A stretch of DNA of 41,349 nucleotides from Neocallimastix lanati (nom. inval.) (Eukaryota; Neocallimastigomycota; Neocallimastigomycetes; Neocallimastigales; Neocallimastigaceae). The DNA is taken from positions 1 to 41,349 of the forward strand of contig JACVTC010000344.1 of NCBI GenBank assembly GCA_016946835.1, given 5' to 3'. Below the pieces are notes generated by a model. The model saw only the letters and a list, made by a program, of their open reading frames with translations. It made no database searches and was not told where the DNA came from. Below are positions 12,066 through 41,349 of the stretch, piece by piece (positions within the stretch are counted from its first letter, which is position 1; every line of letters starts with the position of its first letter). Both the position numbers and the translations under genes were made by a program.

Positions 12066-12681
12066 TGATACGATATTTTATTAAATACCGTATATGTTAG
12101 TTGGGCGTTTGTGCAAAAGGGAATTACTCCAAGAATATTATATTACAATAATTATATTTACTTTTTATTTATTTATCTTTTATTATTTTATTTATTATAT
12201 TTTATCATAAAAAAAAATACATGTTTTATTATTATTCCTTAAAAAAAAAGAAAATATTTATTTATAAATTATTTTCATAATTATATTTTTTACTAATTTT
12301 ATAAATTTTATTTATCGAAACACTAAAATTAATTAATAAATATAAATATTCATAACTTTTTACTTATAACTATTAATTCATATTGTTTAACATTATTTAA
12401 AAATTATTTTAATATTAACATCAATTTAATTAAACATTCAATCTCCGTTATAATTAATATAACTAATTTTACTATATTATCAACAATTCTTTTAATATTT
12501 TTAATATTATTATTTAATTTAATATTTTAATAATTAATAATAATAAATTATCTTTAATAATATATTAATAATATATTTTAAGATTCATTATATAAAATTA
12601 ATTTTTAATAAATATTTATATTAATAATTTTTCTAAATAATTTTTCTATTATTTTCTATTATTTTTACTGGACATGCATCA
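12066..12681 (-). repeat. Gypsy-1 LTR 2 (shared central LTR)
   Basis: Identical in length and ends to LTRs 1 and 3. It is at once the 5' LTR of copy A and the 3' LTR of copy B, the signature of a tandem element sharing one LTR. No flanking host sequence occurs on either side. Confidence 0.92.
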
Positions 12682-12699
12682 AGATGCCCCCACTTAGCT

Positions 12700-12722
12700 T
12701 AGACTTCGTCCCTTGAAGTCTA
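12700..12722 (-). promoter_or_regulatory. Hairpin and GGGGGCATC motif next to the 3' LTR, copy B
   Basis: Exact counterpart of 4225-4247 in the right copy, unchanged. Confidence 0.45.
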
Positions 12723-12769
12723 TAAGCATATTAAAATATTTATTAAACTAATAATACTATTATATATTT

Positions 12770-12853
12770 TATAATATTTTTTTTATATTTTTTTTTTTTT
12801 ATATTTTTTATATATATCAAAATTTTTTTTTTTTTTTTTTATATATATATCAT

Positions 12854-12900
<47 letters not shown>
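12770..12900 (-). repeat. Long T tracts in the 3' UTR, copy B
   Basis: Counterpart of the copy A tracts. The pol stop codon (12899-12901) lies at the very end of the longest run, so sense mRNA has about 40 A directly after the stop. Confidence 0.6.
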
Positions 12901-12903
<3 letters not shown>

Positions 12904-15900: not shown

Positions 15901-18173
15901 GAACACTAATATAATTTAAAAATAATTTTTCTACATCAGCTTTCAAATTTTCTGGTAATTTTTTTACAATAGAGTGAATCATTTCCAGTTTAGATATTGT
16001 GTCGTCTGTGCAAACCTCGTTTTCATTATGTAGTACTTCATTAGTTATTAATAAAAGAGATGGAATCAATTGTGTTGTAATATCAACCGTTTTATTCTTA
16101 TATTCTTTCCTTTCAATATTTCTATCTACTAATTTATAATTACTATTTAATTTGTTATTGCCGTTTTGATCAGAATCGATTTTTGATGGAAGTTTAGAAT
16201 GTAGTATGGGATTTATATTGTTTGTAACTTTAGAATTAATTTTATGATCATTTATTTTATAATTGTCAATTTTATCATCATTCTTATTATTATTCGTTTT
16301 TATTTTGATATTATTTTCTTTATCGATGTCGACACTATTAAAGAAAGGTAATTTTACATTAAAATTATTTATGTTAATATTAGGTAACTCTGATTTAGCA
16401 TATGTAAAAAGTATATTATTATTATCATTATTATTATCATTGTCACTCCAACTAGTTTCAGAATCCTCATCATTCTCTTCAGAAGAATTATTATTTATAT
16501 TATTCTCCTTATTCATATTATTTTCTTCGTCATTAATTCTATTTGTACTTTCAGAAGGACTCAAGCTAACATCATAAAATAAAGAAGCTAATTCTATAGG
16601 ATTATTATTTTCATCAATATGATATAAGGTATCATTAACTAAATTTATATCAAATCTATTTCGTTTAAGTGTGTCAATACCTATTAATATATCAAAGATA
16701 TCATCCTTATCAATTTTCCTAAAGTAATCGATAAAAGTGTAATTTCCAATAGATATTTTTAGTTCATAAATATCTGAACAAGTTGAATTGTTGGAATATA
16801 CTTGAAAAATTTTTTCGGATATTCTCCCAATAGGATTTTTATTAATTTTAAATTTTTTTAAAGCCGTAGTGGTAATCAAATTAACGCTAGCACACGAGTC
16901 CAAGAAAATTTCAGCTGGTTTCTTATCCACAGTGCCTTTAACTTTAATCACTTTATGTTGGCTTATAATTGTCATTACATTTATTAAAGATGTATTCAAA
17001 TTTTTCTTTATTTTCTCTTTTCCTTCGGTTAATTTTAATGCTTTTGTAAATTCTGACCTGAACTTTGGAAACAGGTCTAACAAATATACTAACTTCGTTA
17101 TGACTTCGGTTGATGCTACTTCCTTGATAAAGTCCTTAATTTTAAATTCATTAAAATCTTCCATCATTTTTATGTGTTTCTCTGGCTTGGAATAACTTTT
17201 AACATTGATGGGTATATCATCTTTGTTACTGCTCAGTATTTCATTTATTTTATTCAATTTATTCGCTTTTTTTACATTTCTAATATTTGGTTGATTGATA
17301 TAAGAAAGATCCAAATATTCTAATTTATTTGTATTATTATTAGTTATTGTTTGATTAGTTGGTGGTTGTGAATCCTCAAAAATTTCAATAGATTCATTGA
17401 AAGTAACATTTTTATGATCTTTATTTTCTTTAAATTCTTTACCTTCTTCTTTTTCTGTTGATAGTTTGACATTCGTTCCTCCCTCATCTATTATCATATC
17501 AGGTGTTCCTGTAGTTGCTAATTTATTAACGTTTAATTTTCTTTTCATAATAGTATTTTTCTTCATAGCATTTGTAATAATTGGAACTGGATTATCTATA
17601 AGCTTTTTCTTTATTTCTTTGGTATATGGGGAGATTTTTATTGAATTATTTTTACCTTTCTTTTGGGCAACAGCGATAATTTCCTCATTATGGTAATTAT
17701 CAAAATTATTATAAATATTATTTGAATTAGGTTCATTATTAATTTTCTTTTCATTATCATTTATAGAAATTCTATTTAAATCAATTTCATTGTTACTTTG
17801 ATCATCATTATTATTTTTATAAGTATTATTTATATTAACATCATTGTTAACTTGTTTATTAATAGTGTCATTTTCATAGATGTTGTTATGATTACTATTA
17901 TTTAATTTATAACCGTTACTAGTATTCTTACTAAGATATTCTATATTATTTAAGTTATTATTATTATTATTATTGGAATAAATATTATCAATACTTGTAT
18001 GATTATCATCAAATAAACTGTTTGTATAATTTATTTTATTATTCTTATTTAAATAATTATTGTTTATATCATAATTATGTGAATTATCATTATAAGGATA
18101 TCCATTATTTATTACATCATTATTTGAAGTTGCACTAGCATTATATGAATTATTATTATTATTATTATTATGT

Positions 18174-18204
<31 letters not shown>

Positions 18205-18247
18205 AATTATTATCATTAGTATTATTATAATTATTTTTTATTTTCAT
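12899..18247 (-). CDS. pol: Gypsy-1 copy B Pol polyprotein (PR-RT-RNase H-IN)
   Basis: 1782 aa and uninterrupted. An Asn-rich N-terminal region (1-190) precedes the aspartic protease (FLDSCA, Asp450, with Cys where Gly is usual). Reverse transcriptase has Asp899 and YIDD at 961-964. RNase H has Asp1110, Glu1152, Asp1179 and Asp1223. An Asn/Lys-rich linker (about 1230-1390) follows. Integrase has the zinc site H1434, H1438, C1468, C1471 and catalytic Asp1500, Asp1559, Glu1595 (35-residue spacing), then a GPY/F-type module near 1735. It would process Gag-Pol, copy RNA to DNA and integrate it. The listed start is the first Met. The true entry is probably by -1 frameshift from gag, adding 41 codons from 18370. 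No chromodomain is visible. This is the most plausibly active copy. Confidence 0.93.
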
Positions 18248-18343
18248 AGTATTATTATTTAACTTGGGAGAGTATGTTAAATTTACATATTCTTCATTAA
18301 TACTATTATTTTTATTATAAGTTTGAAGTTTGGTTTGGTTAAC

Positions 18344-18376
18344 GGGAGTTGTCCTTCTCCCATTATTTAGTTTAAA
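18344..18376 (-). promoter_or_regulatory. -1 ribosomal frameshift signal, Gypsy-1 copy B
   Basis: Same as copy A: zero-frame U UUA AAC (18376-18370), gag stop at 18369-18367, and GGGAG/CUCCC stem at 18361-18344. The -1 frame runs 41 codons into the intact pol. Confidence 0.87.
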
Positions 18377-19671
18377 TTATTAAAGCTATCTCCATTATTA
18401 TTATTATTATTTACATTAGCTTTGAAATTACTATTAATATTTGAACTAGTAGTATTAATATCCTGATTTATTCCATTAGAATTTCTATTAAAATTATTAT
18501 TTCCAGTGGGAATATTATTCTCATTAAAATTATTATTATTTCTATTAGCAATATTATTTCCAGTAAATTTATTATTTTTATTAAAGTAATAATTACTACC
18601 ATTAAAAGAATTATTGTAGCCATTTTTATTACTATTATTATAATAATTGTTATATTTATTACTATTATTATTATAATCAAAATTATTATTATAATTATTA
18701 CCCATATCATTATTATTCACATTATAAAGATTATTATTTCTATTACTACCATTATTTTTATTATTAGGACATTCATAAGCTTTATGTCCTACTTGCTTAC
18801 ATGAGTAACACATAACTGATTTTCTAGCTTTTGGTTCGTAGTTATTATAGAATCTTCTTGTATCATAAGTATTATTTTGTTGAATTTGTTCTACTCCGTG
18901 ATAATAATTATTATTATTATTAAAACTTTTATTTTTATTGTTACTATATCTACCTGGTGTAAACATTCTATTATTGGTGGAGTTTTCATTTATATAACCC
19001 ATAACATATGATGACGCTTGATATGAATTATCTAAATTATTTCCATGTTCTCTTAAGCTCCTATAAATTGGATGATTTAATAAATTGTTATTATTTTTAT
19101 TTATGTTGTTTTGATATACCATAACATTCTGAGAATTTTTGTTTGTTATAGTTCGTACTTCAGCTTTTTCTGCACGTTCTGCTACTTCGAACGCTTCTGT
19201 TAATGTTTTACAGTTGGCCAAAATTACTTGAGAATGTACATATACCCTATCATGTATAGCATTTAAATAATCATCGACACATATTAATTTTTTATATTCC
19301 AAGTCAAGTCGATGATAAAGAGTTAAATAATTATAATTAAATCCTTTAATTGTTTCATTTCTTTTTATTTTTAAGGCCTTTAAAATTGAACACTTATCAT
19401 TTTGAGTAATTTCTAAATAATCTTCAATGGCTCTCTGGATTTCTTTATATGAGGGAAACCTTTTAACATTATTTCTTGTAGTACATAAAGATTTTAAAAG
19501 GTTTTTTATGTCAGCCTCTACTGCGTTCTTTACCCAAATAAAAATTCTGTTTGGTTCCTCAATGTTGTAAATTTCCATAACATTTTTGAAATCTTCTATC
19601 CAAGAATCTATGTCCTTACCATAATTTGCTAAGTATGGTAAGTCTCTTCTAATTTTCGAAGCGTCCGCCAT
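18367..19671 (-). CDS. gag: Gypsy-1 copy B Gag
   Basis: 434 aa, the same protein as copy A: helical capsid-like part at about 1-175, zinc knuckle C288, C291, H296, C301, Asn-rich tail to the end. Its gene lies directly upstream of an intact pol in the -1 frame, so this copy could make both Gag and Gag-Pol in the ratio set by frameshifting. The start is the first ATG (MADASKIRRD), about 870 bp from the LTR. The C-terminal low-complexity tail after the zinc knuckle is unusual in length and may be disordered. Confidence 0.92.
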   Translation of the reverse strand: MADASKIRRDLPYLANYGKDIDSWIEDFKNVMEIYNIEEPNRIFIWVKNAVEADIKNLLKSLCTTRNNVKRFPSYKEIQRAIEDYLEITQNDKCSILKALKIKRNETIKGFNYNYLTLYHRLDLEYKKLICVDDYLNAIHDRVYVHSQVILANCKTLTEAFEVAERAEKAEVRTITNKNSQNVMVYQNNINKNNNNLLNHPIYRSLREHGNNLDNSYQASSYVMGYINENSTNNRMFTPGRYSNNKNKSFNNNNNYYHGVEQIQQNNTYDTRRFYNNYEPKARKSVMCYSCKQVGHKAYECPNNKNNGSNRNNNLYNVNNNDMGNNYNNNFDYNNNSNKYNNYYNNSNKNGYNNSFNGSNYYFNKNNKFTGNNIANRNNNNFNENNIPTGNNNFNRNSNGINQDINTTSSNINSNFKANVNNNNNNGDSFNNLN

Positions 19672-19757
19672 TTATCTAATTATTATTTTAATTTGAAATT
19701 ATATTCTTATATACTTTTACGAGTATAATAATATTATTTTTATTATTGTTATTATTA

Positions 19758-19804
<47 letters not shown>

Positions 19805-19881
19805 TCTTATTTTATATACTATTACTAAAATATTACTATTATTAAAATATTATTTATTATTATTAATTATTAATTCACTAT

Positions 19882-20065
19882 TACTAAAATATTATTTATT
19901 ATTATTAATTATTACTTAATTCACTATTACTAAAATATTATTTATTATTATTAATTATTACTTAATTCACTATTACTAAAATATCATTTATTATTATTAA
20001 TTATTACTTAATTCACCATTACTAAAATATTATTTATTATTATTATTAAAATATTATCTATTATT
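19882..20065. repeat. 46-bp tandem repeat in the Gypsy-1 leader, copy B
   Basis: Four units, counterpart of 11408-11591, preserved without visible change. Confidence 0.85.
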
Positions 20066-20172
20066 TTTTTTTTTTTTCTAAATATTATCACATATACTAT
20101 TAATAAAATATTATTTAATATTAATTTTTATACTAAACTATTACTACTTTTTATTATAATATCATTTCTTAA

Positions 20173-20325
20173 TTAAAGGTTTATTCGTTTTTATACTGGT
20201 CCGAATTCCCAGTTGTCTTTAATTACTAATAAAGATGATAATAAAAAAAAATTAACTATACTAATAATAATAATTAAAGACTTATTCGTTTTTATTCTGG
20301 TTCGAACTCCCAGTTACCTTTAATT
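20173..20325 (-). repeat. Paired hairpin repeats in the Gypsy-1 leader, copy B
   Basis: Counterpart of 11699-11851: two hairpin units about 100 bp apart between the primer-binding site and gag. Confidence 0.5.
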
Positions 20326-20358
20326 ATTATTTAATAATAATCATAATAATTTTAGGCG

Positions 20359-20389
<31 letters not shown>

Positions 20390-20518
20390 TTTATATATTA
20401 CTATTATAAAAAAAATTAATTATTTAATTTTAATTTAATATTAATTATTTAATTGTCTTTATTTTTTAAAAAGTAAATATCAATATAAATATAAATTTCA
20501 TAATATTCTTGGTTTGCA

Positions 20519-20536
20519 CGCCCGGATTCTCCACCA
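20519..20536 (-). promoter_or_regulatory. Primer-binding site, Gypsy-1 copy B
   Basis: Identical to copy A: begins with TGG four nt inside the 5' LTR. Confidence 0.65.
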
Positions 20537-20540
20537 TTTT

Positions 20541-21156
20541 TGATACGATATTTTATTAAATACCGTATATGTTAGTTGGGCGTTTGTGCAAAAGGGAATT
20601 ACTCCAAGAATATTATATTACAATAATTATATTTACTTTTTATTTATTTATCTTTTATTATTTTATTTATTATATTTTATCATAAAAAAAAATACATGTT
20701 TTATTATTATTCCTTAAAAAAAAAGAAAATATTTATTTATAAATTATTTTCATAATTATATTTTTTACTAATTTTATAAATTTTATTTATCGAAACACTA
20801 AAATTAATTAATAAATATAAATATTCATAACTTTTTACTTATAACTATTAATTCATATTGTTTAACATTATTTAAAAATTATTTTAATATTAACATCAAT
20901 TTAATTAAACATTCAATCTCCGTTATAATTAATATAACTAATTTTACTATATTATCAACAATTCTTTTAATATTTTTAATATTATTATTTAATTTAATAT
21001 TTTAATAATTAATAATAATAAATTATCTTTAATAATATATTAATAATATATTTTAAGATTCATTATATAAAATTAATTTTTAATAAATATTTATATTAAT
21101 AATTTTTCTAAATAATTTTTCTATTATTTTCTATTATTTTTACTGGACATGCATCA
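20541..21156 (-). repeat. Gypsy-1 LTR 3 (5' LTR of copy B)
   Basis: 616 bp with TG...CA ends. Its outer end lies 15 bp from a tRNA-Trp gene. Transcription of the element (minus strand) would run away from the tRNA. Confidence 0.92.
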
Positions 21157-21160
21157 CTAA
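21157..21160. repeat. Target-site duplication ctaa, right of Gypsy-1 array
   Basis: Partner of 3587-3590. It lies 12-15 bp upstream of the tRNA-Trp mature 5' end. Confidence 0.65.
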
Positions 21161-21171
21161 AATTGAGATGG

Positions 21172-21243
21172 GGAGGGTTGGCGCAACGGTAGCGCGTTCG
21201 CCTCCAGAGCGGAAGGTTGGGTGTTCGAATCACTCACTATCCA
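21172..21243 (+). tRNA. tRNA-Trp (CCA)
   Basis: 72-nt cloverleaf: acceptor GGAGGGT with ACTATCC (one G-A mismatch, one G-U), D stem GCGC/GCGC, anticodon stem TTCGC/GCGGA with loop CTCCAGA (anticodon CCA), T stem GGGTG/CACTC with loop TTCGAAT, discriminator A. A T run follows within 10 bp as a Pol III terminator. The D arm resembles known tRNA-Trp genes. It lies directly downstream of the Gypsy-1 array. The mismatch could slightly weaken the acceptor stem. Confidence 0.9.
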
Positions 21244-21904
21244 AATTTTTATTTTTCAAATAAATATATATATTTTTTTTAAAAAAACCTTTTTTTTTTT
21301 TTTAATCTTCTTTTTTTTTTTTTTTTTTTTTTTTCTTTATAGAGGTCTTTTTTTTCGTTTCGTCTGGTCACCTTACTGATAAGGATAAGAATAAAAAAAA
21401 TTTTTTTTTTTTTAACTTTTGTTCTATCCTCCCCTCTCTTTCTCTATCCTCAATTAAAAAATAAAAAAAAAAAAAAAAAAAAAAGTTTATGAATATATAT
21501 ATATAATACCATGGCATTGTGTTTGCTTTTAAAATTTTTTTGTCTTTTAAATTTGATTTTTTTATCGTCAAAATTTGATTTTTTTTTTTTTTTATTGAAG
21601 AATATAACCTATTAGCCATGGGATATACTTACTCAAAGAAAAAAAAAAAAAAAAAAGAGGGGAAGTCATCAATACAATTATTAAATTTCTAAAATGTATT
21701 GACAATCGAAAGAAAAAAAAGTTAATTTTTTTTTTCTTTTGTATAAAAGGGACAAAGGTCAAGAATATAGTAATAAAATAATAAATATATGTATAAGTAT
21801 TAAATTATAAGAAAATATATATATATATATAAAACCCTATAATAATAAAAAAAAAGTTGAAAATAAAAAAAAAAAAAAAATTGAAATTAAAAATAAAAAG
21901 TGGA
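21244..21904. other. Homopolymer-rich spacer between tRNA genes
   Basis: Long T and A runs with no convincing gene. The only ORF (21368-21619, minus) is mostly Lys and Phe from homopolymers and is rejected. T runs right after the tRNA-Trp gene and, on the minus strand, after the tRNA-Cys gene serve as Pol III terminators. Confidence 0.7.
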
Positions 21905-21976
21905 AGGGGCGTTCCGGATTTGAACCGAAGACCTATTGATCTGCAGTCAATTGCTCTACCGCTGAGCTAACACCCC
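21905..21976 (-). tRNA. tRNA-Cys (GCA)
   Basis: 72 nt: acceptor GGGGTGT with ACGCCCC, D stem GCTC/GAGC, anticodon stem ATTGA/TCAAT with loop CTGCAGA (anticodon GCA), T stem TTCGG/CCGGA, and discriminator U as usual for tRNA-Cys. A T-rich terminator lies just downstream on the minus strand. Its 5' end is 14 nt after the 3' end of tRNA-Ser with no terminator between. Confidence 0.93.
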
Positions 21977-21990
21977 TATCTATAATGAAG

Positions 21991-22072
21991 CGTCAGCTGC
22001 AGGGTTTGAACCTGCGCGGGCAAAGCCCACCAGATTTCAAGTCTGACTCCTTAACCACTCGGACAAACTGAC
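21991..22072 (-). tRNA. tRNA-Ser (UGA)
   Basis: 82 nt: acceptor GTCAGTT with AGCTGAC, D arm, anticodon stem TCAGA/TCTGG with loop CTTGAAA (anticodon TGA), a long variable arm typical of tRNA-Ser, T arm and discriminator G. It is directly upstream of tRNA-Cys on the same strand. No TTTT lies in the 14-nt gap, suggesting one dicistronic Pol III transcript. Confidence 0.93.
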
Positions 22073-23150
22073 TACTTCCATTGTTCTTGATTTATACCTA
22101 ATATTCTTAATCTACAAAAATTAAATTTTGTAGAAGTGAATAAAAGGATAAATACTGAATAAAATTGATTTAAGAAATTTAAAAAAAATAAATATGTTTT
22201 ATTATTAAACACAAAAATGTTTTATTAAAAAATTTATTTTTATTTTTAATATTAATCTTTATTTATTTAATAATTAATTTTGTTTAAATTAATAAAATAA
22301 TTGTTAAAACTAATAAAATAATAAAATGAAATATTTATTATTTATACTAATTTATTTTAAATTTTAATAATAAAATTGATTATTAATAACTAATAAAATA
22401 TATAATAATTTATCAAAATAATTAATAATCATAAAAATTGATTATTAAAAACTAATAAAATATCTATAATAATTTATTAAATAATTAATAATCATACTTT
22501 TTGATTATTAAAACTAATAAAATATTTATAATAATTTATTAACTAATTAATAATAAAGAATAATTTATAAGAAATATTTACATGTTTTTATATTTTTCTT
22601 TGATTTTAAACTATTTACATTAAAAATAATAAAATTAATAAAAGAGAAATAAAGAATAATTTATTATTAAATTAAACAATATTTACAATTAAAATGTTGA
22701 TAAAATGAGTTTTAAAATGTTATTTTAATTACAATTTGTTTATAAAAGTTGAGTTATAAAATAAAATAAATAAAATAATCATTATTTTAAATAAAAGTAA
22801 CTTAAAAAATTATTTAACTAGTTAATTTTAATTTTGCGATGTTTATAAGTTTGTTTATTTGTTATTTATAATTTATTAAATTTGTTTATTATTTTGTTTA
22901 TTTGTAGTCTTAGAAAAATATTATTTATTAATTTATTTTAGTTTTTAATTAAAATTATTAATGATTAATTAAATTATTATTATTTTATTTTAATTATTTT
23001 TATTTAATTAATTTTTCTTAAATATGGATTTAATTTTTTGTTTAGAATGGATTAATTTTTGGGTTAAGTTAGACAGAATTTGTTTTTTTTATTATTTATT
23101 TTAATTTAATAATTTTGTTATTTATCATTCCTATGGAATTTTTTCTTACT

Positions 23151-25645: not shown

Positions 25646-27097
25646 TTATTTTGTTTTATTAAAATTAATGATTTCATTATTCAATCTAATTAAACAATTA
25701 AACCAATTTTCGATGATATCATTTTTACTACATCCAATATTTTTTAATTCGGCTTCCATATTTTTATAATATTCAACTAAAATATTAATGTCATCGACCC
25801 TTTCTGATATTCTGCTCTTTTTTCTCCAAATTCCTTTAATTCTCATATGGTAATCATAGTAAGATTTGGATTCTTCAAATTGTATTGTATATATTAATTT
25901 ATAAAATGAAGGCTTTTTTACAAATAAATTTTTTAAATAACTGTTATAAGATTCTGAAGCATTATTTGTTATGTGGTCTATATTATTGTAATAATTCCAA
26001 TATTTTATATTATAGATATTTAGAAATGTTTTCTCAAAATAATCTAAAAAATTCAAAAATTGGGAACAGGTAGATTTATATCTCATGCATGTATTTTTAA
26101 TTTTATTAAAAATATCAGGTATGTATTCAATATTAATAAAACATAAATTAGAAATCACTTTATAATAAGTATTTAAAATATTATGATCTTTCACTTCCTT
26201 GTAACATAATTTATTTTTTTTTGTCATTAATAATATTTTATAATGCCAAAAACAATATTTAATATTTATATTGGGAAAAATATTTTCCACTGCATTAGAT
26301 ATTCCTTTTTCAAAATCACAATGAAAAATTTTTTCTGAGAAATTAATATTTGCATTATATTTAATTATATTTTTTTTTATTTCATTAAATAATATTTCGT
26401 AAGTTATTTGTTCTTTGTTTTTTAATATTGACATGGAAGTAGTGTAAAAACAATTTAATTCTGTAACATAAGTTCTGGTAATGAATACTTGATAACTATT
26501 AGTTGGAGCTATTAAAAATGTACCATCAGCAAATATATGTTTATTCTCCATAAATAATTTTGCTTGGAATGGTGATTGAAAAATTATTATATTAGAATTT
26601 TTGAATATCATAAAGTATTCACCTCTTATTGTTTTATAATATTCAGATACATTAGGAACTTCATCTAATGTTTTTACATTAGGAAATAATTGTTTGTTTT
26701 TATATCTTGTTATTTGGGATTTAATTGTTTTATATTCAGGGCATATATATCCTATTTCTTGAGAAATTTTATCAAATATGCGTTTTGATTTTATATCAGA
26801 AGGAATAAAACTTTTTTTTATTTCATCTTTAATTTTATGTTTTATTAATGATTTGGATGCATTAATTTCATTACCAGGATGATTATGTGAAGAATCATAA
26901 TTTAAAACCTCTTTATTATCATTTAAAATAATAAAAGACTTACATTTATTTAATGTTTTATATTCTGTACATCTATATATTTTTGTATTATCTTTTTTTA
27001 ATTTTGAAAAATTATATTTAAATTTTCGATCTATAATTATTTGCTCTTTTCCTTGATTTGTTTCACTTATATCAATTTTTAGATTTCCCTCCATCAA
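25646..27097 (-). CDS. MULE transposase with FLYWCH-type zinc finger
   Basis: 483 aa, intact. A FLYWCH-like zinc finger occupies about 25-75 (C43, C52, H71, H73, ending SHNHPG), likely for binding the terminal repeats. The MULE catalytic domain follows: Asp191 in FADGTF, Asp261 in HCDFEKG, the C-X2-H motif C282/H285 in YCFWHY, and Glu382 in the TNNASES motif, consistent with the DDE triad of this superfamily. It would cut and paste the element between its terminal repeats in the nucleus. No SWIM zinc finger is visible after the catalytic domain. The start is the double Met at 27097; the stop is followed by AT-rich DNA. Codon use is as AT-rich as its surroundings, so it is not obviously recent foreign DNA. 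Confidence 0.92.
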   Translation of the reverse strand: MMEGNLKIDISETNQGKEQIIIDRKFKYNFSKLKKDNTKIYRCTEYKTLNKCKSFIILNDNKEVLNYDSSHNHPGNEINASKSLIKHKIKDEIKKSFIPSDIKSKRIFDKISQEIGYICPEYKTIKSQITRYKNKQLFPNVKTLDEVPNVSEYYKTIRGEYFMIFKNSNIIIFQSPFQAKLFMENKHIFADGTFLIAPTNSYQVFITRTYVTELNCFYTTSMSILKNKEQITYEILFNEIKKNIIKYNANINFSEKIFHCDFEKGISNAVENIFPNINIKYCFWHYKILLMTKKNKLCYKEVKDHNILNTYYKVISNLCFINIEYIPDIFNKIKNTCMRYKSTCSQFLNFLDYFEKTFLNIYNIKYWNYYNNIDHITNNASESYNSYLKNLFVKKPSFYKLIYTIQFEESKSYYDYHMRIKGIWRKKSRISERVDDINILVEYYKNMEAELKNIGCSKNDIIENWFNCLIRLNNEIINFNKTK

Positions 27098-31938: not shown

Positions 31939-31966
31939 CTATTTTGAGTTAGTTCTTAATAGAATT

Positions 31967-32931
31967 TGTAAAATAAAATACTTATCAAGTCTAGGTTTGT
32001 GGCTATTCTAAACTAACTTTACTACACTAATAACACTATATCTTAAACCTCTATTATTTAATTAATTATTTTCTTTTTTAATTTCTTTTATTTATTTATT
32101 TTATTTATTAACTAATTTTCAACAACCACTTAACTGGGTAACGCAGGGTCCTTTCCGGAGTTCCCACTAGCAGTTAAGATTTTACAAACTATAATATAAT
32201 TGTTTTATAAGAAAGTAACTATCCTAATAATAGTTACGAAACTAATAATAAAATTTAAATTTTCCTATTCTATACGATTTTCCAACTATCGTTCAATAGT
32301 TGAAAAATTAACTCTTTTTATACTTTTTCAAAATAAAGTTTTAAATCAAAATAAATTTTAATAAATTACATAAACATATTATTTTATATTATCAATTGCA
32401 TTATTTAATAAATTACATGAAATGTTATGAATTATTTTAATATAAATCCTATTTAAAACTATCTAATTTTTCTAAAATTTTCTATGAAGAAAATTTAGAG
32501 TTTAATTCATTAATTATATGATTAAATATATTCTATCCATATATTTAATTTAAATTTTGCCAAGTTGTGAAAACCAATTTACTAAACCACAACTTGCTAT
32601 TTTTATTTTTAGAATTTCTATAATTTAAAAGACAAGTAAACAAAACGGCAAGTTTTTGTAAACAAACGGAAAAGGCAATATTCCTTTAATTATTTTAATT
32701 TAACTAATTAATGACTAATTATTTTTTAATTTATGAAGTTTCGTGATTCAACTGAGTAATTGTTACGTAAATTCTCCAAATAATTTAGTCATAAATTTTT
32801 GAGAAAATTATTTAAATTAATAATTTGGAATACATTTAAATTTATATTAAAAATTTGGAAAACATTTTTATCCACAATAATTTACATTACATTACATTTA
32901 AATACGTATTCAAATTATTAAATATTTTACA
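31967..32931 (-). repeat. Inverted repeat of about 960 bp, copy 2 (partner 2611-3573)
   Basis: Reverse complement of 2611-3573 including the GC-rich core (32129-32178). It directly adjoins the direct repeat in this block, whereas in the left block the two are 1.75 kb apart, so the blocks are rearranged relative to each other. Confidence 0.8.
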
Positions 32932-32950: not shown

Positions 32951-33261
32951 TGTTAAGGTTTTAGAGAATTAAATAAAAATAAAGTAAAGAAACACAAATT
33001 TTATTTTTTTTTTATTTATTATTTTTATTTATAAATTTATTTTATTAATTTTACTTGATGATTTTTAAAAATTAGTAGCAAAATTTACAACTATTTATAC
33101 TTTTTTTTCAAGGCATAAAAGTTGTATTTGCCACTAAATTACATTTTATTTTTATTTTTTTTTTTATAAAAACTATTAAATTTAAATTGATTTTTATAAT
33201 CAATTATATAAAATTTAATTATAACAATATAAATAAAATACATTTATAATATTAATAAAAC

Positions 33262-33309
<48 letters not shown>

Positions 33310-33794
33310 CTATCTAAAATATTACTAATAAGAATTTATTTAATTGGCTATAATTTTTATTACAATCTGTTAAAATATTCAAATAAAAATAAAAATACTA
33401 TTCTAATATAAAGGTTTTTAATAAAATAAAATATTTTTCAATATAAAATAAAACATTTCGATATAAAATTTTATAATAAAAGTTAAAATATAATATATAA
33501 ATTTTTAATTATCAATATATAAAAATATTATTAATACAAATTTTCATTATTAATATAAAAATAAAAAATAAGATTTATTATTAATATTGCTAATATAAGT
33601 TTTAAATATATAAAAATATTACTATTAATATAAGATTTAATATAAAAATATAAAGTTTAATATAATTTTTGATTTAATTTTTGATTTTTGGATTTAAAAA
33701 TTTATTAAAGTACAAAAATAATAATGTACACATAATGTATTAGAAATAAATCGTAGATTTAATTAAGAATGCATTATTTAGTACATTCTTATCA
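32951..33794 (-). repeat. Gypsy-2 3' LTR
   Basis: 844 bp, plus-strand ends TGTTAAGG...CTTATCA. Contains a T tract of about 34 bases near 33271-33304. On the sense strand CGGGGCATCT abuts it, in the polypurine-tract position. Confidence 0.9.
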
Positions 33795-33812
33795 AGATGC
33801 CCCGACGAAGAC

Positions 33813-36467
33813 TCAAGCTTCTCTGTAAGCGGAGTTAAACTTTACTAAATTTTTAAAGTGAACATTCCTATCGAGTTGCTTTCCAGTCTTCTGATCGATT
33901 AGGGTTGCCGTGTTGAATTGAATTTTTAAAATTTTAAATGGTCCATTGTAATATGGTTCTAGCTTAGTGCGGCTAAAGTTTCTAACAAGAACAAGATCAC
34001 CAGCCTTTAATTCTTTTCCTTTTTTCATACTTATTTGTTCTTCTCGTCTTGTTGCCCAATACTTGTTAGCATTCTTCACATTTTCGCATGCTTCTCTAGT
34101 CCATTGATAATGACGAACAAATTTTTCCATTAAGATTTCATCATATGATTTACCTGCATTTTCAATTGTTCTTATGGCTATATCATAAGGCTGTTGGTCT
34201 TCTCTTCCATATACTAATTCAAAACTAGAATGTCCAGTAGCTGTATTTTTGGTAGTTCGAAGTGCCCATAAAGCAGAAGGTAAAACTTCATCCCAATCTT
34301 GATTTTTCCTTCCTAATAAACGAAGTAATTTTCCAATTTCTTTGTTTCGATTTTCAGTAAGACCATTGGATTCAGGGTGATAAGTAGCTATGAATTTTAC
34401 ATAAACGTCATAAAGGTCAAGAAAGATTTTTGTCATGTCAGAGGTGAATTGGGCTCCATTATCAGTAGTAATAACTTGAGGCACACCATGTCTTGCAAAA
34501 ACGTTTATTAAAAATTTAATTATATCAGAGGAAGTTATGTTTTCAGTGGGTTCGGCTTCAACCCATTTGGTAAAGTAATCAACAGTTACTATAATATATT
34601 GATTATTATTTCTTGTTTTTGGTAACGGTCCTATAATATCTAATCCTAAATGCACAAAGGGACCCTCCACTTTAGTTGGATGGTTTTCAGTTGGTTCTGG
34701 ATATGGTTGAGGACGATTTAATTGGCATTTTTCACAATTACTAACAATTCTTTTGATATCTTCAATCATATGATTCCAATAAAAGTTTTTCTTAAGTCTT
34801 TGATATGTTTTGTAATATCCTTCGTGGCCAATATTATGAGCTTCTAAAATTAATTTAAACCTTTCATTTTCGTCCGTTATTAATTTTCTATAATTTCCAT
34901 TGTCGATAAAGTAATCTTCACCATCAATAACAGTAAACTTTTCATTAATAAATTCCTTTATAACTTTAGATAATAATTCTTCATTATTTCCATTAGTAAT
35001 TTTTGTTAATAATATCTTTCTCTCTTCCTTACTTTTCATTCTTGAAAGAGCATCAGCTAACACATTCTTTTTGCCTGATTCATATTTTATATTAATTCCA
35101 AGCATACTAGCGGTTAGACACCATCTTGTTTGCCTTGCATTCAAAGGTTCTTTATTTTTAAATAAACCAACTAATGGTTTATGATCTGTGTAAATAGTTG
35201 TAGGTAATGGATTTCCTTCAATATAAGATTTAAATTTAGTCATACAGTAGAATAAAGCTGTTCCTTCCAAATCTGTGATACCATAATTCTTTTCAGCTTT
35301 CTTCAAACTTCTACTTATAAAGTGTATTGGATGCTCCTTACCGGTTTCTTCTTCTTTTTGTAAAAGAACTCCACCAATTCCATTATACGAAGCATCATTT
35401 CTAATGATAAAAGGTTTGTCAAATAACGGAAATTTTAGAATAGGTGCATTGATTAATTTTTCTTTTAGGAGTTCAAAGCTTTCTTGTTGTTCTTTATTCC
35501 ATTCATATTTAGTATTCTTTTTTAATAATTTACATAAAGGTGAGGTAATTTGAGCATATTTAGGAATAAAGTCACGATAATATCCTACTGCTCCTAGAAA
35601 TGATCTTAATTCATGCATTGATGAAGGGGCTTCCCACTTCTTAATAGCTGTTATTTTACTTTCCATGGGACTTAATCCTTTAGTAGTAAGTTTGTGACCT
35701 AATACATCAACTTCAGTTTGAAGAAAATGGCACTTTTCAATATTAATTTTTAACTTGTTTTCTTTAAATACTTCTAATACTTGTTTAATATGAATTAAAT
35801 GTTCTTCGATACTTTTTGAATAGATCAAAACATCATCAATAAATACATAAACAAATTCACCAATAAAAGGGAATAAAATTTTATTCATTTCTCTTTGGAA
35901 GGTTGAGGGAGCTCCAGTAAGTCCAAAAGGCATAACCTTAAATTGATAATTTCCAAACTTAGTAGTGAAAGTGGTTACTTCAACGCTTTCTTCATCCATT
36001 AAGATTTGGTGAAAACCAGAAAATAAATCAAGAGTTGTAAATATTTTAGCTCCTCCGAGACTATCAAAAATTTCATCTATATATGGAACTGAATAAGAAT
36101 CTTTTTCTGTCATATCATTGACTTTTCGGTAGTCAATGCACAAGCGCCACTTTCCATTGTGTTTTAGAATGAGTACTACTGGAGATGACCATTCTGAACA
36201 GGATGGTTCTATCAATCCTTTCTTAATAAGCTTTGTAAGTTCTTCTTTTAAGATATCTGATTTTAATTTAGTTAACCTATAACTTCTTAATTTTACTGGC
36301 TTTGCATTTGCTTTCAAACGGATCTTATGTGGTGAAAGTTTAGAAGGAGTTAGTTCTTCTGTTGAAGTGGCAACTATGTCAATCATTTCTTTGAGAATTT
36401 TAATAATTTGTTCTTTATAATCTTTATTTAAGGTACTTAAAAATTCATCACTCTCAATAAATTCCAT
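33813..36467 (-). CDS. pol: Gypsy-2 Pol: reverse transcriptase, RNase H, integrase
   Basis: 884 aa, uninterrupted. RT has Asp147 (TLDLFSG) and FIDD at 209-212. RNase H has Asp358, Glu401, Asp428 and Asp472. Integrase has the zinc site H544, H548, C578, C581 and catalytic Asp610, Asp669, Glu705. A GPY/F-type motif (YYNGPFKI) lies near 840. It lacks the Asn-rich linker between RNase H and integrase that Gypsy-1 has. The stop is only 18 nt from the 3' LTR. The protease frame upstream ends at 36581 in a different frame, so at least one frameshift separates them and the fused polyprotein cannot be made as written. The Met given is simply the first in frame; the true polyprotein had no start here. 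Confidence 0.9.
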   Translation of the reverse strand: MEFIESDEFLSTLNKDYKEQIIKILKEMIDIVATSTEELTPSKLSPHKIRLKANAKPVKLRSYRLTKLKSDILKEELTKLIKKGLIEPSCSEWSSPVVLILKHNGKWRLCIDYRKVNDMTEKDSYSVPYIDEIFDSLGGAKIFTTLDLFSGFHQILMDEESVEVTTFTTKFGNYQFKVMPFGLTGAPSTFQREMNKILFPFIGEFVYVFIDDVLIYSKSIEEHLIHIKQVLEVFKENKLKINIEKCHFLQTEVDVLGHKLTTKGLSPMESKITAIKKWEAPSSMHELRSFLGAVGYYRDFIPKYAQITSPLCKLLKKNTKYEWNKEQQESFELLKEKLINAPILKFPLFDKPFIIRNDASYNGIGGVLLQKEEETGKEHPIHFISRSLKKAEKNYGITDLEGTALFYCMTKFKSYIEGNPLPTTIYTDHKPLVGLFKNKEPLNARQTRWCLTASMLGINIKYESGKKNVLADALSRMKSKEERKILLTKITNGNNEELLSKVIKEFINEKFTVIDGEDYFIDNGNYRKLITDENERFKLILEAHNIGHEGYYKTYQRLKKNFYWNHMIEDIKRIVSNCEKCQLNRPQPYPEPTENHPTKVEGPFVHLGLDIIGPLPKTRNNNQYIIVTVDYFTKWVEAEPTENITSSDIIKFLINVFARHGVPQVITTDNGAQFTSDMTKIFLDLYDVYVKFIATYHPESNGLTENRNKEIGKLLRLLGRKNQDWDEVLPSALWALRTTKNTATGHSSFELVYGREDQQPYDIAIRTIENAGKSYDEILMEKFVRHYQWTREACENVKNANKYWATRREEQISMKKGKELKAGDLVLVRNFSRTKLEPYYNGPFKILKIQFNTATLIDQKTGKQLDRNVHFKNLVKFNSAYREA

Positions 36468-36580
36468 TGGAGTTAATTCCTTTATAATTTCCTTTTCATT
36501 ATTCGTTTCTTTAACTTTTCTAATAGTGCAAGATTATACTTTCTTCATCATAATATTGATTATTTATTTTAGCTATTTCT

Positions 36581-37630
36581 TCAGTATTCACTTTCTGACA
36601 AAAGTTTACATAGACTGTTTAAGGTCGGATGAATAAATAAACAATGATCGATTTGAGTTTTAAAGTTTATTAACATATCATAAAATGAGTCTTCTTTCTC
36701 AATAATTCTAAAGTCCGCATTAAATTCATAATTATTAATTTTTACTGGTAATCGAACAATAATTCCTTCCGAGTATTCTTCATCTTGTGTTGCTAGTTGG
36801 ATTCTTCCACGACTTTTTCCAACTGTTTCATATTCACCAGGTAATTTATCAAAATACTGCTTAGTAACGATGCTTAGGTTACTACAAGAATCAATTAAAA
36901 GTTTTCCTAGTACTCCGTCAACACTTGCATCAATCATTGCTAAGTCTTCTTCGGCTACTTCATTACTTTTACTTATGTAGCTATGATCATAGTTATTTAC
37001 TAATAAAGTTCGTGCTATTATATTGTCTACAGTTCCAATTATTTTAGATTTTTCTAACTTTAAACCTTGAGTTAATTGTGAACGAATTTTCGGACATGCA
37101 TTCAAGAGTTGACCTATCGTAATACTGGATTTAAGATTATTTAAATCATCCATAATATTGTAAGGTTCTTTATTATTCATCATTTTGATATTCCTTTTTA
37201 CTAACTGAGTATTTCCATTATTAGTTTCTTTAGTTTTTGTTGAAATTAATTTTTCCAAAGTATTAGTTTTATTTTGTTGATTATCTTTATTCATTTCTAG
37301 ATCTTCTATTTCATTATCGATTACAAGTATATCTTCAGATTCAACTTTTTCCTTTCCTTTTGATGAATAATTGTTGTTTTCTTCTTTACTTTCTCTTACT
37401 CTTGTCATATTTCTTAATTCCTTTTCTTTTTGTTTTTCTTTGTTAATATTTGGTTGAGTTAAAATTGAAGGAAGTATTTGATTTTTATAAACTTTATTTG
37501 GTTTATTATGTAGCTCATTTTCTTTCTTCTTTCTTAAAGCAGGAGTTGCGAAAGGACGTGGATTATCTTTTAAACTTTTATGTACTTTCTTGGAATTATT
37601 TTCTTCTTTTTCGCTGTTATTATCATTCAT
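36581..37630 (-). CDS. pol: Gypsy-2 Pol N-terminal part with aspartic protease (frame broken before RT)
   Basis: 349 aa from the first Met, but the -1 frame from gag is open from 37819, adding 63 codons. The first half is charged and Lys-rich and shares short blocks with Gypsy-1 (DNPRPFATPAL; a helical block ending IRSQLTQGLKL). The retropepsin motif LLIDSCSN puts Asp247 in the active site, again DSC instead of DSG or DTG. After FYDMLI the sequence stops resembling Gypsy-1 (DILIGIDTLKRNRF), and other frames carry the better match, so one or more indels occur near 36660-36690. The ORF then ends, 113 nt before the RT frame. Probably a decayed part of one gag-pol polyprotein. Confidence 0.8.
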   Translation of the reverse strand: MNDNNSEKEENNSKKVHKSLKDNPRPFATPALRKKKENELHNKPNKVYKNQILPSILTQPNINKEKQKEKELRNMTRVRESKEENNNYSSKGKEKVESEDILVIDNEIEDLEMNKDNQQNKTNTLEKLISTKTKETNNGNTQLVKRNIKMMNNKEPYNIMDDLNNLKSSITIGQLLNACPKIRSQLTQGLKLEKSKIIGTVDNIIARTLLVNNYDHSYISKSNEVAEEDLAMIDASVDGVLGKLLIDSCSNLSIVTKQYFDKLPGEYETVGKSRGRIQLATQDEEYSEGIIVRLPVKINNYEFNADFRIIEKEDSFYDMLINFKTQIDHCLFIHPTLNSLCKLLSESEY

Positions 37631-37791
37631 TTTTCTTTTTATAGCATTTATAATGATATCATCCTCACTTTCAGTTGTGTCACTAAAATCAGATTCTTCA
37701 GATTCTTCATTAAAGGAATTATTATCAATTGGAGTATTCTTAGTAAAAGTATTATTTTGTAAATTATTTAATGAAGCTATTGTTTTGTCAT

Positions 37792-37825
37792 TGGGAGTGC
37801 TTCTGCTCCCATTTAGAAGTTTAAA
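37792..37825 (-). promoter_or_regulatory. -1 ribosomal frameshift signal, Gypsy-2
   Basis: Sense U UUA AAC (37825-37819) in the zero frame of gag, one sense codon before the UAA stop (37815-37813). Eight nt later come GGGAG, an 8-nt loop and CUCCC (37810-37793), plus one more U-A pair. The -1 frame is open for 63 codons to the first Met of the protease ORF. Same layout as Gypsy-1. Confidence 0.85.
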
Positions 37826-38407
37826 GACTTTTTGGAATATATTTCTTTTTTATTTTTTTCCATAATCTTATTTAATTGAGGGCAATAGTATGAGTAATGA
37901 CCTTCTTCCTTACAGAAGAAGCAAGTTTTAACAGATAAATTTCTCATTTTCTGGGTTGATTCTTCTATAATATCTTGAGGTTTCAGTTTATTATTTGTTT
38001 GACTTGTTTGGAAAGTTTCGTTTCTTCTTTTAGGATAAAGTCTTGAAGTAGTACTGTTTTGATTATTTTGATTATGCTGGGAATTATTAACATTATAGGT
38101 ATTAATATTATTGTTCCTTACAGAAAGTCTATCTACTTTCTCGGCAATTTTGAAAGCTTTCTCCATACTTATATCATCTTTAAGGGATAATTTCTTCCAG
38201 GCTTCATAATTATTTTGAATAGAATCAATATAATCTAGTACACCAATGCGCTTTCTTCTCTTTTTATCAAGTTTAGTGTACAAAGTTCTATATCTTACAT
38301 TAAAGTCTTTAATCTTTTCGTTTCTTTTAATTCGCATTGCACGAAGTTCTTTAAGAAGTAAATTTTGGTCTTCTTTAATACCGTAAAAATTTTCAAGACT
38401 TGAAATA
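37813..38407 (-). pseudogene. gag: Gypsy-2 Gag, C-terminal part
   Basis: From about 38407 the frame reads IISSLENFYG onward: the second half of a capsid-like region (RIKRNEKIKDFNVRYRTLY, clearly similar to Gypsy-1 Gag KIKRNETIKGFNYNYLTLY) and a zinc knuckle C-FF-C-KEEG-H-YSYY-C. It ends at the frameshift site. The open frame extends upstream to 38568, but that part (MMKVMIHQMKKKKMM) is an out-of-frame reading of the acidic region and not real. Continuous with 38393-38725 in the ancestor. Confidence 0.8.
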
Positions 38408-38725
38408 ATTTTTTCCAAGAGAAGGAAATTTAATATCATCATCAACATTTTCTTCTTCATCATCTTCTTCTTCTTCATCTGATGAATCATCACTTTCATC
38501 ATCACTATCTTCTCCCAAATCTTCAATAACGCGTTGTACTTCACCAGAGCTGGTAAGTAAACAAGCATTAAATATTGTTTCTGGATCTGTAATACCTTGT
38601 ATCTTGATCCAAAGTTTTAATTCAGTAGCCCAGGACTTAATATCTAAATTGTCCTTGCTAAGTTTCACAATATCTCTTAATTCTTTTTTCAATTCTTTAA
38701 AGCTCAAAGTTGTTTCCTTGGACAT
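38393..38725 (-). pseudogene. gag: Gypsy-2 Gag, N-terminal part
   Basis: Starts at MSKETTLSFK (38725); an upstream Met at 38791 is less likely because the added 22 residues are hydrophobic leader-like sequence. The capsid N-terminus is followed by an acidic run of about 22 residues and IKFPSLGK, matching RFPSYKE of Gypsy-1 Gag. The frame is lost in a run of six A on the sense strand (38414-38409). Dropping one base rejoins it with the C-terminal part. Either a mutation or a homopolymer sequencing error. Confidence 0.8.
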
Positions 38726-38904
38726 TTTGTTTAAATATTTCTTGTTGTATATTAATGAGGTGATTAAATAAGAATAAATTTGGAAATACAACTTTAAAAA
38801 TATAATTTAATAGGTAATTTAATATCGAATCAATTTTTAAAACAATATATTTTAGTAACTTTTGAAAATAATAATTTTATTTGCTTTCTTTAGTAGATAT
38901 AAGC

Positions 38905-39210
38905 TCGAAATCTTTATCGACAACTTAGTAGAAATTATAAAGCACGAGGTTCTTTTCGACTACTTTATTAAGAATAATTTTTAAGTTCGAAATCTTTATC
39001 GACAACTCAATAGAATAATTTTAAGTTCGAAATCTTTATCGACAATTCAATAGAATAATTTTAAGTTCGAAATCTTTATCGACAACTTAATAGAATAATT
39101 TTAAGTTCGAAATCTTTATCGACAACTTAATAGAATAATTTTAAGTTCGAAATCTTTATCGACAACTTAATAGAATATTTTTCAAGCTCGAAATCTTTAT
39201 CGACCACTTG
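38905..39210. repeat. 40-bp tandem repeat in the Gypsy-2 leader
   Basis: Five exact-period units start at 38983, 39023, 39063, 39103 and 39143, with degenerate copies at about 38905 and 39184. Each unit contains AAGTTCGAAATC and TATCGACAACTT, whose ends can pair. It lies between gag and the primer-binding site. It is not CRISPR: there are no unique spacers. Confidence 0.9.
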
Positions 39211-40205
39211 AATTTGTAATTTAGTATATTTGTAGTAATAAATTTAGAAGCAAAGTTTTATTTGTTATTTTCACCTTTCAAAAATTTTCTTTTTAAACGA
39301 TAAATATTGTATTGTTATAGCTAATAAAATTATTAATTAATTATAATTATTAAATACAAAAAAAATAATCTTTATTGTCGTACAATCTGATAGTACACAC
39401 TGTCTGACGTGCAGCTTACCTAATGGTGTCATGCCACGCGTGTGCCACGATTACTATATTCAATATAAAATATAGCAGTTCAGAGCCCACTAGCCCAATT
39501 ACTATGTAGGATAACTTAATCCGATAATCTATGTACGGAATAAAAAAAATTTTAAAAGTATTCAATAATATTTTTATTAACTAATAAAAATTAACTAAAA
39601 ACACAATATTTTCAAAGTAAATTAAGATTCTTTTACAGGAATTATTAAACAAATAAAGTATCAGTAATAAAAAAAAATAAAAAAAATTTAAATGGCGAAG
39701 TTAGCCAAAGTCTGATACTTTATATAATAAAGTGCCTTATAACTAGCACAAAGAAAAGTAAAAAAAATATATAAAAAAAACAATCTTACGCCTTCGGTGA
39801 CGTAAGCTCCTTATTCGCCAGTGCTTGGAAAGTACCCGCACCTTCGTGTGTTGAAACGTTGAAGGCTGAACTATTATTACCGGGTCGGTAACCAAATACC
39901 TTCGTCTACTTTCCAATTAATCTCCAAATTAACTACTATTCAATAACCTACTATGAATAGAGTTAATTTGTTGCTATCTGAGAATACACTGTGTATGAGC
40001 TCTATCCGCTCCTTGTTATAATTTTACAAAATTTGTTTTTTTTTAGAATCTTAATTTTACTTATTTAAAAAAAATTTTTTTTATATATATATCAAACAAG
40101 CGCCATAGGTTAATCAAAGGATTAACGACTTACTTGTTTATCAATATAAAATAAAAAAAAATTAAAAAAAAAATCTATGTTATTTACTATTATTTCTATT
40201 TAATT
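39211..40205 (-). other. Gypsy-2 structured leader RNA region
   Basis: No ORF. Much richer in G+C and in pairing than nearby DNA: CTTACG/CGTAAG at 39785-39806; a 10-bp long-range helix 39825-39834 with 39907-39916; a 10+7-bp hairpin 39925-39942 with 39954-39970; a nested hairpin 40094-40100 with 40133-40139 enclosing 40109-40114 with 40121-40126. Likely roles are packaging, dimerisation or internal translation initiation; none can be assigned. Confidence 0.6.
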
Positions 40206-40222
40206 CCCCGATATCTCCACCA
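40206..40222 (-). promoter_or_regulatory. Primer-binding site, Gypsy-2
   Basis: Six nt inside the 5' LTR the sense strand reads TGGTGGAGATATCGGGG. It shares TGGTGGAGA with the Gypsy-1 site and a later CGGG, suggesting the same or a related primer tRNA. Confidence 0.6.
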
Positions 40223-40228
40223 TATAAA

Positions 40229-40546
40229 TGTTAAGGTTTTAGAGAATTAAATAAAAATAAAGTAAGAAACACAAATTTTATTTATTATTTATTATTTTAT
40301 TTATAATTTATTTATTAATTTATTTATTTATTTTATTTGATGATATTTAAAATTAGTAGCAAAATTTACAACTATTTATACTTTTTTTTCAAGGCATAAA
40401 AGTTGTTCTTGCCACTAAATTACATTTTATTATTATTTTTTTTTATATATAAAAACTATTAAATTTAAATTGATTTTTATAATCAATTATATAAAATTTA
40501 ATTATAACAATATAAATAAAATACATTTATAATATTAATAAAACAT

Positions 40547-40596
<50 letters not shown>

Positions 40597-41078
40597 CTAT
40601 CTAAAATATTACTAATAAGAATTTATTTAATTGGCTATAATTTTATTACAATCTGTTAAAATATTCAAATAAAAATAAAAATACTATTCTAATATAAAGG
40701 TTTTTAATAAAATAAAATATTTTTCAATATAAAATAAAACATTTCGATATAAAATTTTATAATAAAAGTTAAAATATAATATATAAATTTTTAATTATCA
40801 ATATATAAAAATATTATTAATACAAATTTTCATTATTAATATAAAAATAAAAAAATAAGATTTATTATTAATATTGCTAATATAAGTTTTAAATATATAA
40901 AAATATTACTATTAATATAAGATTTAATATAAAAATATAAAGTTTAATATAATTTTTGATCTAATTTTGATCTTTGATTTAAAAATTTATTAAAGTACAA
41001 AAATAATAATGTACACATAATGTATTAGAAATAAATCGTAGATTTAATTAGAATGCATTATTTAGTACATTCTTATCA
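40229..41078 (-). repeat. Gypsy-2 5' LTR
   Basis: 850 bp, same ends as the 3' LTR, with a T tract of about 40 bases near 40552-40591. Its outer end is 14 bp from the tRNA-Trp copy. Confidence 0.9.
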
Positions 41079-41092
41079 AAAAATTGAGATGG

Positions 41093-41127
41093 GGAGGGTT
41101 GGCGCAACGGTAGCGCGTCCGCCTCCA
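41093..41127 (+). pseudogene. Truncated tRNA-Trp, 5' half ending at the anticodon
   Basis: GGAGGGT, the full D arm and the anticodon 5' stem match the intact tRNA-Trp at 21172, with one change (TTCGC to TCCGC, which would strengthen the stem). Identity ends right after CTCCA, the last anticodon base; AT-rich DNA follows, and no 3' half appears before the window end. The 13 bp upstream (ATTGAGAT and flanks) also match the intact gene. Confidence 0.85.
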
Positions 41128-41349
41128 CATTTATTATTATTTTATATTTTATTTAAAAAATATTATTTTTACAAATTATAGAATTTCTATATTTTTTTTT
41201 TAATTAAAATTCTATTATAATTATTTTTTCTATTTTTTAAATTTTTATTTTAAGATTTTAGAAATTTTATTTATTTTTTTTAATAATTTAACTTAAAAAA
41301 ATTAAATGAGTAAAATTTTATTAAATATTTTTCTTTGTGTTTTTTATTT
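41128..41349. other. AT-rich DNA to the window end
   Basis: I see no gene. It could be the start of another insertion that interrupted the tRNA, but only 222 bp are visible. Confidence 0.5.

Follow-up and report, generated by a model that had tools for sequence, protein, structure and literature searches.

Contig JACVTC010000344.1 of the anaerobic fungus Neocallimastix lanati (C273; one of 762 contigs in a 199-Mb assembly) was analyzed over its whole length of 41,349 nt, hereafter the window, and carries two retrotransposons with long terminal repeats (LTRs), Gypsy-1 (E1) and Gypsy-2 (E2), each of which ends just upstream of a tRNA-Trp sequence. E1 and E2 very probably represent related Ty3/gypsy families whose integrases are guided to assembled RNA polymerase III (Pol III) promoters, most likely via TFIIIB, and whose insertion sites are re-used in layers. 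Pol III-type targeting as such is already known from Ty3, DGLT-A and Tj1; what is new here is the divergent orientation of the elements, their layering, and the presence of LTR-borne promoters as landing pads. Two further families enter the argument, a third gypsy family (F3) and a chromodomain gypsy element (F4).

Evidence for this comes from the sites occupied by other E2 copies. From the best 40 of 1346 candidates, 38 right-end flanks and 2 second LTRs were fetched, the right end being, in the window, that of the 5′ LTR. Once two internal junctions (L090 and L108, the second LTRs of C237 and C150) and a truncated LTR (L107) had been left out, 39 right ends were evaluable, including those of the window and of contig C256; the first right end of C237 lies outside the sample. 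Among these, 34 of 39 adjoin tRNA-type sequences, of which 28 have both the A and the B box of the internal promoter, 3 have a B box only (L070, L084, L089), and 3 have just an A box (L087, the half tRNA in the window, and L093, which lies at a contig end). A further two (L075, L078) face, 3-4 bp off, an LTR start that recurs elsewhere. ARAGORN called tRNA genes at 12 of the 39 ends (three Ser, two Glu, one each of Ile, Val, Thr, Leu and Trp, and two whose isotype the program left undetermined), and in all 12 the LTR lies 13-16 bp from the tRNA. Tabulated by isotype and offset over the samples rather than the whole genome, the targets are thus of many isotypes and the offset is fixed. Offsets throughout are measured from the mature tRNA and the A/B boxes and not from mapped Pol III start sites, and three tabulated values are shifted because the flanks concerned (L002, L004, L005) start 4 bases early.

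The same precision was found in a genome-wide pattern search for the E2 end followed, after a gap of 50-80 bp, by the B-box sequence GGTTCGA, which returned 140 matches as against 0 for a reversed-pattern control. Among 100 listed rows of these 140, in which one LTR end occurs twice, the gap between E2 end and B box is 63-69 bp in 98 and 64-66 bp in 84. This constancy bears on the possibility that the integrase reads a short DNA motif common to the sites and not the Pol III complex. A-rich stretches are indeed common to some flanks; however, the joint shows different 4-bp sequences (CAAA, TTAA, AATA, CAGT, CTAA and others), and the B box keeps a constant distance although the tRNA bodies are unrelated. 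We consider recognition of such a motif very unlikely. Because it is the distance to the A/B boxes that is constant, and not the sequence at the joint, and because the integrase is homologous to that of Ty3, contact between integrase and the Pol III initiation complex is the explanation we prefer. The sequence-only reading had proposed conserved targeting of this type by both families, and the proposal is strongly supported by the E2 sites, by the pattern search and by the E1 sites described next.

For E1, 30 right ends were cut from 40 scored copies (of 2678 candidates) and 3 more came from a query containing the tRNA-Trp gene; with two LTR/internal junctions (L040, L041) and L006, an E1 with an altered LTR end before tRNA-Met, left out, 31 were evaluable. 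Of these, 13 of 31 adjoin tRNA-type sequences, which comprise tRNA-like sequences as well as genes for Thr, Ser, Met, Ala and Trp. At a further 14 of 31 another LTR start, one that recurs elsewhere in another context, lies 4-6 bp on. The neighbors at these 14 ends include seven E2 copies in the same orientation, some with identical flanks that may mark alleles or duplicates, and one inverted E2. A separation of 4-6 bp approximates one target duplication and so fits a later element landing between E1 and the tRNA. Such layering of LTRs is what is chiefly new about the arrangement. An LTR-like end of TTAACA type lies ~60 bp upstream of tRNA-Trp in the four loci L034 (inside an E2 LTR), L015, L019 and L026, and the E2 LTR of L107 is interrupted ~45 bp from its end; these possibly belong to a further family with a longer offset.

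In the samples, insertion is strongly one-sided. Left ends adjoin tRNA-type sequences in only 2 of 18 E2 copies (two LTR/internal junctions, L117 and L119, left out) and in 0 of 20 E1 copies, which compares with 34/39 right ends for E2 (Fisher p 4e-8; 32/37 and p 8e-8 without the window and C256) and 13/31 for E1 (p 6e-4; 10/28 and p 3e-3 without the three Trp-query copies). In most sampled E1 and E2 copies, therefore, the 5′ LTR is the one on the tRNA side and transcription runs in the direction away from the tRNA. Insertion might alternatively be random, with survivors found in front of tRNA genes because they are harmless there, and for gene-dense genomes PMC5006619 argues that insertions at other places are selected against. 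Yet survival bias offers no explanation for the base-level precision of the gap (64-66 bp in 84/100 rows) or for the one-sided orientation, and the genome measures 199 Mb; such an origin of the pattern appears highly improbable.

In the window itself, the right LTR of E2 ends at 41078 and a tRNA-Trp sequence begins 14 bp on, at 41093, while E1 ends at 21156, 15 bp ahead of a tRNA-Trp gene (21172-21243). Both tRNA-Trp sequences are on the + strand and each is preceded by ATTGAGATGG, so that the distance, orientation and common flank originally noted for E2 agree with the coordinates. The description of the E2 target as another tRNA-Trp copy applies in part: its sequence is that of tRNA-Trp, but the window holds only the 5′ half (41093-41127, + strand), which departs from tRNA-Trp after the anticodon and has no B box. 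It equals the first half of the complete tRNA-Trp of C256 (L011), a contig with the same arrangement of F3 and E2 that is probably an allele of this locus. In the 14-bp spacer (41079-41092, + strand) the first 4 bp, AAAA, are probably the target duplication, a weak assignment in so A-rich a sequence. Beyond the tRNA half, 41128-41349 (+ strand) resembles the body of an LTR, with 75% identity to a stretch of L193 that lies behind a tRNA-like head; a genome search for the junction that tolerated as many as 2 mismatches gave 1 match. This fusion might illustrate the way in which LTRs of this kind gain tRNA sequence, or it might result from misassembly at the end of the contig.

Chance was thought an unlikely cause of the coincidence, and a count of promoter boxes bears this out: of 82,458 positions tested on the two window strands, 34 combine an A box with a correctly spaced B box, and all 34 are at the three complete tRNA genes. 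Another possibility, named in the sequence-only reading as one that would refute its claim, was that the coincidence had been inherited, the two tRNA-Trp loci being copies of one segment with one ancestral insertion site. The window from 21159 to 22086 is 96% identical to C256 over 954 bp (the query began at the insertion boundary), a unit that runs from tRNA-Trp to a tRNA-Cys and tRNA-Ser pair (21901-22072, - strand). The two tRNA-Trp loci are segmental duplicates, which explains their common ATTGAGATGG flank. The insertions are nevertheless independent. Different elements, with different LTRs, sit at the two loci, so the insertion site was not inherited; the F3 copies beside them are oppositely oriented, with TCTTA in one case and GAATT in the other as target duplications; and the same offset is found at isotypes other than Trp. 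The duplication thus stands and the inherited site does not, and we regard common descent of the two insertions as extremely unlikely.

A preference for tRNA-Trp, also suggested in the sequence-only reading, did not survive the wider sample. In its favor, tRNA-Trp is where the three families of the window come together, and 30 Trp loci examined (of the best 40 of 98) could be sorted by their upstream sequence into 21 types, in many of which, as judged by eye, the tRNA is preceded at 13-18 bp by an LTR-like CA. In the part of the E1 sample not picked by its Trp flank, however, Trp accounts for 2 of 8 ARAGORN-called targets, one of which is the window itself, and for E2 it accounts for 1 of 12, which is the C256 allele of the window. 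The genes that E2 adjoins are those for Ile, Ser, Glu, Val, Thr, Leu and Trp, and tRNA-like sequences are a commoner target still, while E1 occupies several isotypes; that tRNA-Trp is a privileged landing site is hence scarcely credible. Segmental duplication as the sole cause of the pattern, a Trp preference, a motif at the joint and survival bias by itself have all been rejected.

Both elements fit Ty3/gypsy (Metaviridae) in the order of reverse transcriptase (RT), ribonuclease H (RNase H) and integrase, in their TG...CA LTRs and in a primer-binding-like site identified by eye. E2 (32951-41078, - strand) consists of two LTRs and an internal part, with the 5′ LTR (40229-41078, - strand) adjoining the tRNA and a primer-binding-like TGGTGGAGATATCGGGG placed by eye 6 nt inside it; the 3′ LTR (32951-33794, - strand) is 95.9% identical to its partner. 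The Pol frame of 884 amino acids (33813-36467, - strand) encodes RT, RNase H and integrase, with no chromodomain reported. E1 (3591-21156, - strand) is a tandem of two units with the middle LTR in common, its three 616-bp LTRs lying at 3591-4206, 12066-12681 and 20541-21156. The last of these is the 5′ LTR (- strand), with a primer-binding-like TGGTGGAGAATCCGGG placed by eye 4 nt inside, and the target duplication CTAA is found at 21157-21160 (+ strand) and 3587-3590. The second unit has a Pol frame of 1782 amino acids (12899-18247, - strand), relative to which the first-unit frame is interrupted; the first and third LTRs are identical over 616 bp, and matching E1 LTR pieces occur at the same spacing on C202. 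Since both elements are on the minus strand, it is the 5′ LTR that lies next to the tRNA.

The two families had been called unrelated, which holds for their LTRs, without a match to each other in a self-comparison of the window, but not for Pol, where RT-RNase H and integrase are each 50% identical (two stretches, 487 and 393 residues). With their similar primer-binding-like sites, this identity makes the families cousins. Their integrase C-termini are clearly homologous, again at 50% identity, so that the common targeting may be inherited rather than convergent; a shared motif contacting TFIIIB, which had been envisaged there, was not demonstrated. Pfam reported no chromodomain in either element. 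The best solved-structure match of E2 Pol is the Ty3 chain of entry 7q5b, and the alignment of the two integrases stops at Ty3 residue 1444 of 1547, 103 before the end of the Ty3 chain and 7 residues before E2 itself stops.

From these observations a sequence of events can be proposed. The integrase would join the complementary DNA ~64-66 bp upstream of the B box, or 12-16 bp short of the mature tRNA, in such an orientation that the 5′ LTR is turned towards the tRNA. Because the promoter inside the tRNA would survive the insertion, the site could be used again; each newcomer would land between the prior LTR and the tRNA, building up layers with the youngest nearest the tRNA. F3 would hit the same targets at a longer offset, and tRNA-like sequences with A and B boxes, one type of which stands at the head of F4 LTRs, would serve like tRNA genes. 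The measuring device in E2 is probably its C-terminal domain, which we take to be of the type named GPY/F.

Several known systems bear comparison. E1 and E2 insert upstream of tRNA genes across isotypes, as tRNA-targeted Ty3-like elements do, distance here being that from the mature tRNA and its boxes. Ty3 of Saccharomyces cerevisiae, likewise a Ty3/gypsy element, integrates immediately ahead of the Pol III start site, ~12-15 bp before the mature tRNA in the account given in PMC5006619; unlike the strongly one-sided E1 and E2, however, it is described as inserting in both orientations in the section available of PMC5911963. DGLT-A of Dictyostelium resembles E1 and E2 in being a Ty3/gypsy element without a chromodomain that inserts ~15 bp upstream of tRNA genes (as outlined in PMC5006619), whereas its orientation is given as either and its distance as 13-33 bp (in the excerpt of PMC5911963), so that sampled E2 copies are both tighter and oriented. 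Tj1 of Schizosaccharomyces japonicus is an LTR retrotransposon with a fixed orientation upstream of Pol III genes (according to parts of PMC4600332); E1 and E2 differ from the Tj1-type arrangement, in which element and target run in the same direction, and point away from the target at 12-16 bp. Our literature search, itself of limited reach, returned no report of tRNA-targeted retrotransposons in anaerobic fungi.

F3 was recognized from two solo LTRs that flank E1 and E2 on the side away from the tRNA, in opposite orientations and with 5-bp duplications of their own. The first (2611-3573, + strand; duplication TCTTA) would have stood 28 bp from the tRNA before E1 inserted, and the second (31967-32931, - strand; duplication GAATT) 29 bp from it before E2 did. 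The internal stretch of another copy encodes gag, protease, RT, RNase H and integrase; the frame of L109 leaves the fetched stretch within sequence that looks chromodomain-like by eye, although Pfam finds no chromodomain there at 1e-3. Twenty solo-looking loci among the best 40 of 308 candidates were read by eye on both sides, two flanks without a recognizable LTR end (C555 and C279; q5) having been left out. Two of the 20 (C93, C94) have a tRNA-type sequence 30 bp away and nine adjoin an F4-type LTR head. F3 thus uses the same targets as E1 and E2 from farther off, the measured offsets being 28-30 bp.

The nature of the tRNA-like targets was examined with an Rfam scan of 32 tRNA-type E2 flanks, the window and C256 left out. 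Eleven reach the tRNA gathering score, one (L084) falls below it, one (L093) is cut by a contig end, and 19 are tRNA-like; over half of the scanned E2 targets are therefore tRNA-like A/B-box sequences, not tRNA genes. At E 0.05, Rfam found no known RNA in L086, L190 or L192-L197. For one tRNA-like type, 10 contigs carry paired copies of a 200-bp unit at a spacing of 5219-5291 bp, and other pairs are spaced 4348, 4507 and 7025 bp (best 40 of 362 candidates). On C101 this unit heads a 645-bp F4 LTR, of which two exact copies at a spacing of 5276 bp bound an element of ~5.9 kb, and the tRNA-like sequence with A and B boxes begins 29 bp into the LTR. A short interspersed element had been considered as the tRNA-like target; for this type it is replaced by the LTR head, given the paired units and the exact terminal repeat. 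The 814-amino-acid frame of F4 has Pfam matches to gag, an integrase C-terminal domain and a chromodomain (Chromo, E 1.5e-17) and none to RT, RNase H or an integrase core. Types L192, L194 and L195 share 75-77% identity with the F4 LTR over 158-188 bp, while L197 is an E2 target outside the traced tRNA-like types.

That other elements land at F4 heads follows from their positions; the heads may also be active Pol III promoters. LTRs that hold a promoter sequence of this kind are described for Helenus/TRIMp3 (tRNA-like) and Cassandra (5S), which, in the portions available of PMC10886601 and PMC10853983, are small and non-autonomous, whereas F4 measures ~5.9 kb and has a long frame. At L190/L191 (~C101:999360-1000120), an F4 LTR without its first 12 bp follows a stretch of ~760 bp, and the end of this stretch resembles, by eye, the sequence that F3 interrupts at window positions 31940-31966; the stretch may represent a fourth family with sites of this type. 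Elsewhere in the window, a frame at 25646-27097 has MULE transposase and FLYWCH domains. The assembly has at least 150 matches to PF02013, a family that marks the fungal dockerins of the Neocallimastigomycota, as against none in 14 control genomes; like the G+C content of ~10-31% in the window, this indicates an anaerobic gut fungus.

Several points weigh against guidance of the E1 and E2 integrases by the Pol III complex. Three of the 39 E2 right ends (L069, L079, L086) and three E1 right ends (L048, L053, L064) lie at neither a tRNA-type sequence nor a verified LTR start, and in a fourth E1 copy (L044) the LTR start lies at 8 bp. At nine of the 20 F3 loci, tRNA-type sequences and F4 heads are both absent as judged by eye. 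The right-end samples consist of the copies most similar to the window copy and are not a random draw, and they include allelic contigs, the distinct flanks numbering 36/39 for E2 and 24/31 for E1. The E2-end pattern requires a B box and so gauges the precision of insertion, not the fraction of copies that are targeted. Survival bias could also add to the pattern. Finally, the vestigial chromodomain of the Ty3 integrase contacts Brf1 and acts as a ruler that sets the insertion site (as presented in part of PMC8632968); the E2 integrase is without a counterpart of this domain, so that its contact and its ruler must differ.

Our findings extend precise Pol III targeting, treated in the pages available of PMC5006619 as a strategy of compact genomes, to an anaerobic fungus with a 199-Mb genome. 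Families that have a target in common and differ in offset (12-16 vs 28-30 bp) make the rule governing distance and orientation testable by comparison, and the layered LTRs at one tRNA may give the relative order of insertion. We consider it an even question whether retrotransposons in this fungus parasitize each other in the sense that the tRNA-derived promoter heads of F4 draw E1, E2, F3 and others, each F4 insertion supplying new sites and giving rise to ordered stacks with family-specific distances. LTR-borne promoters that draw other elements in this manner would let one transposon feed another.
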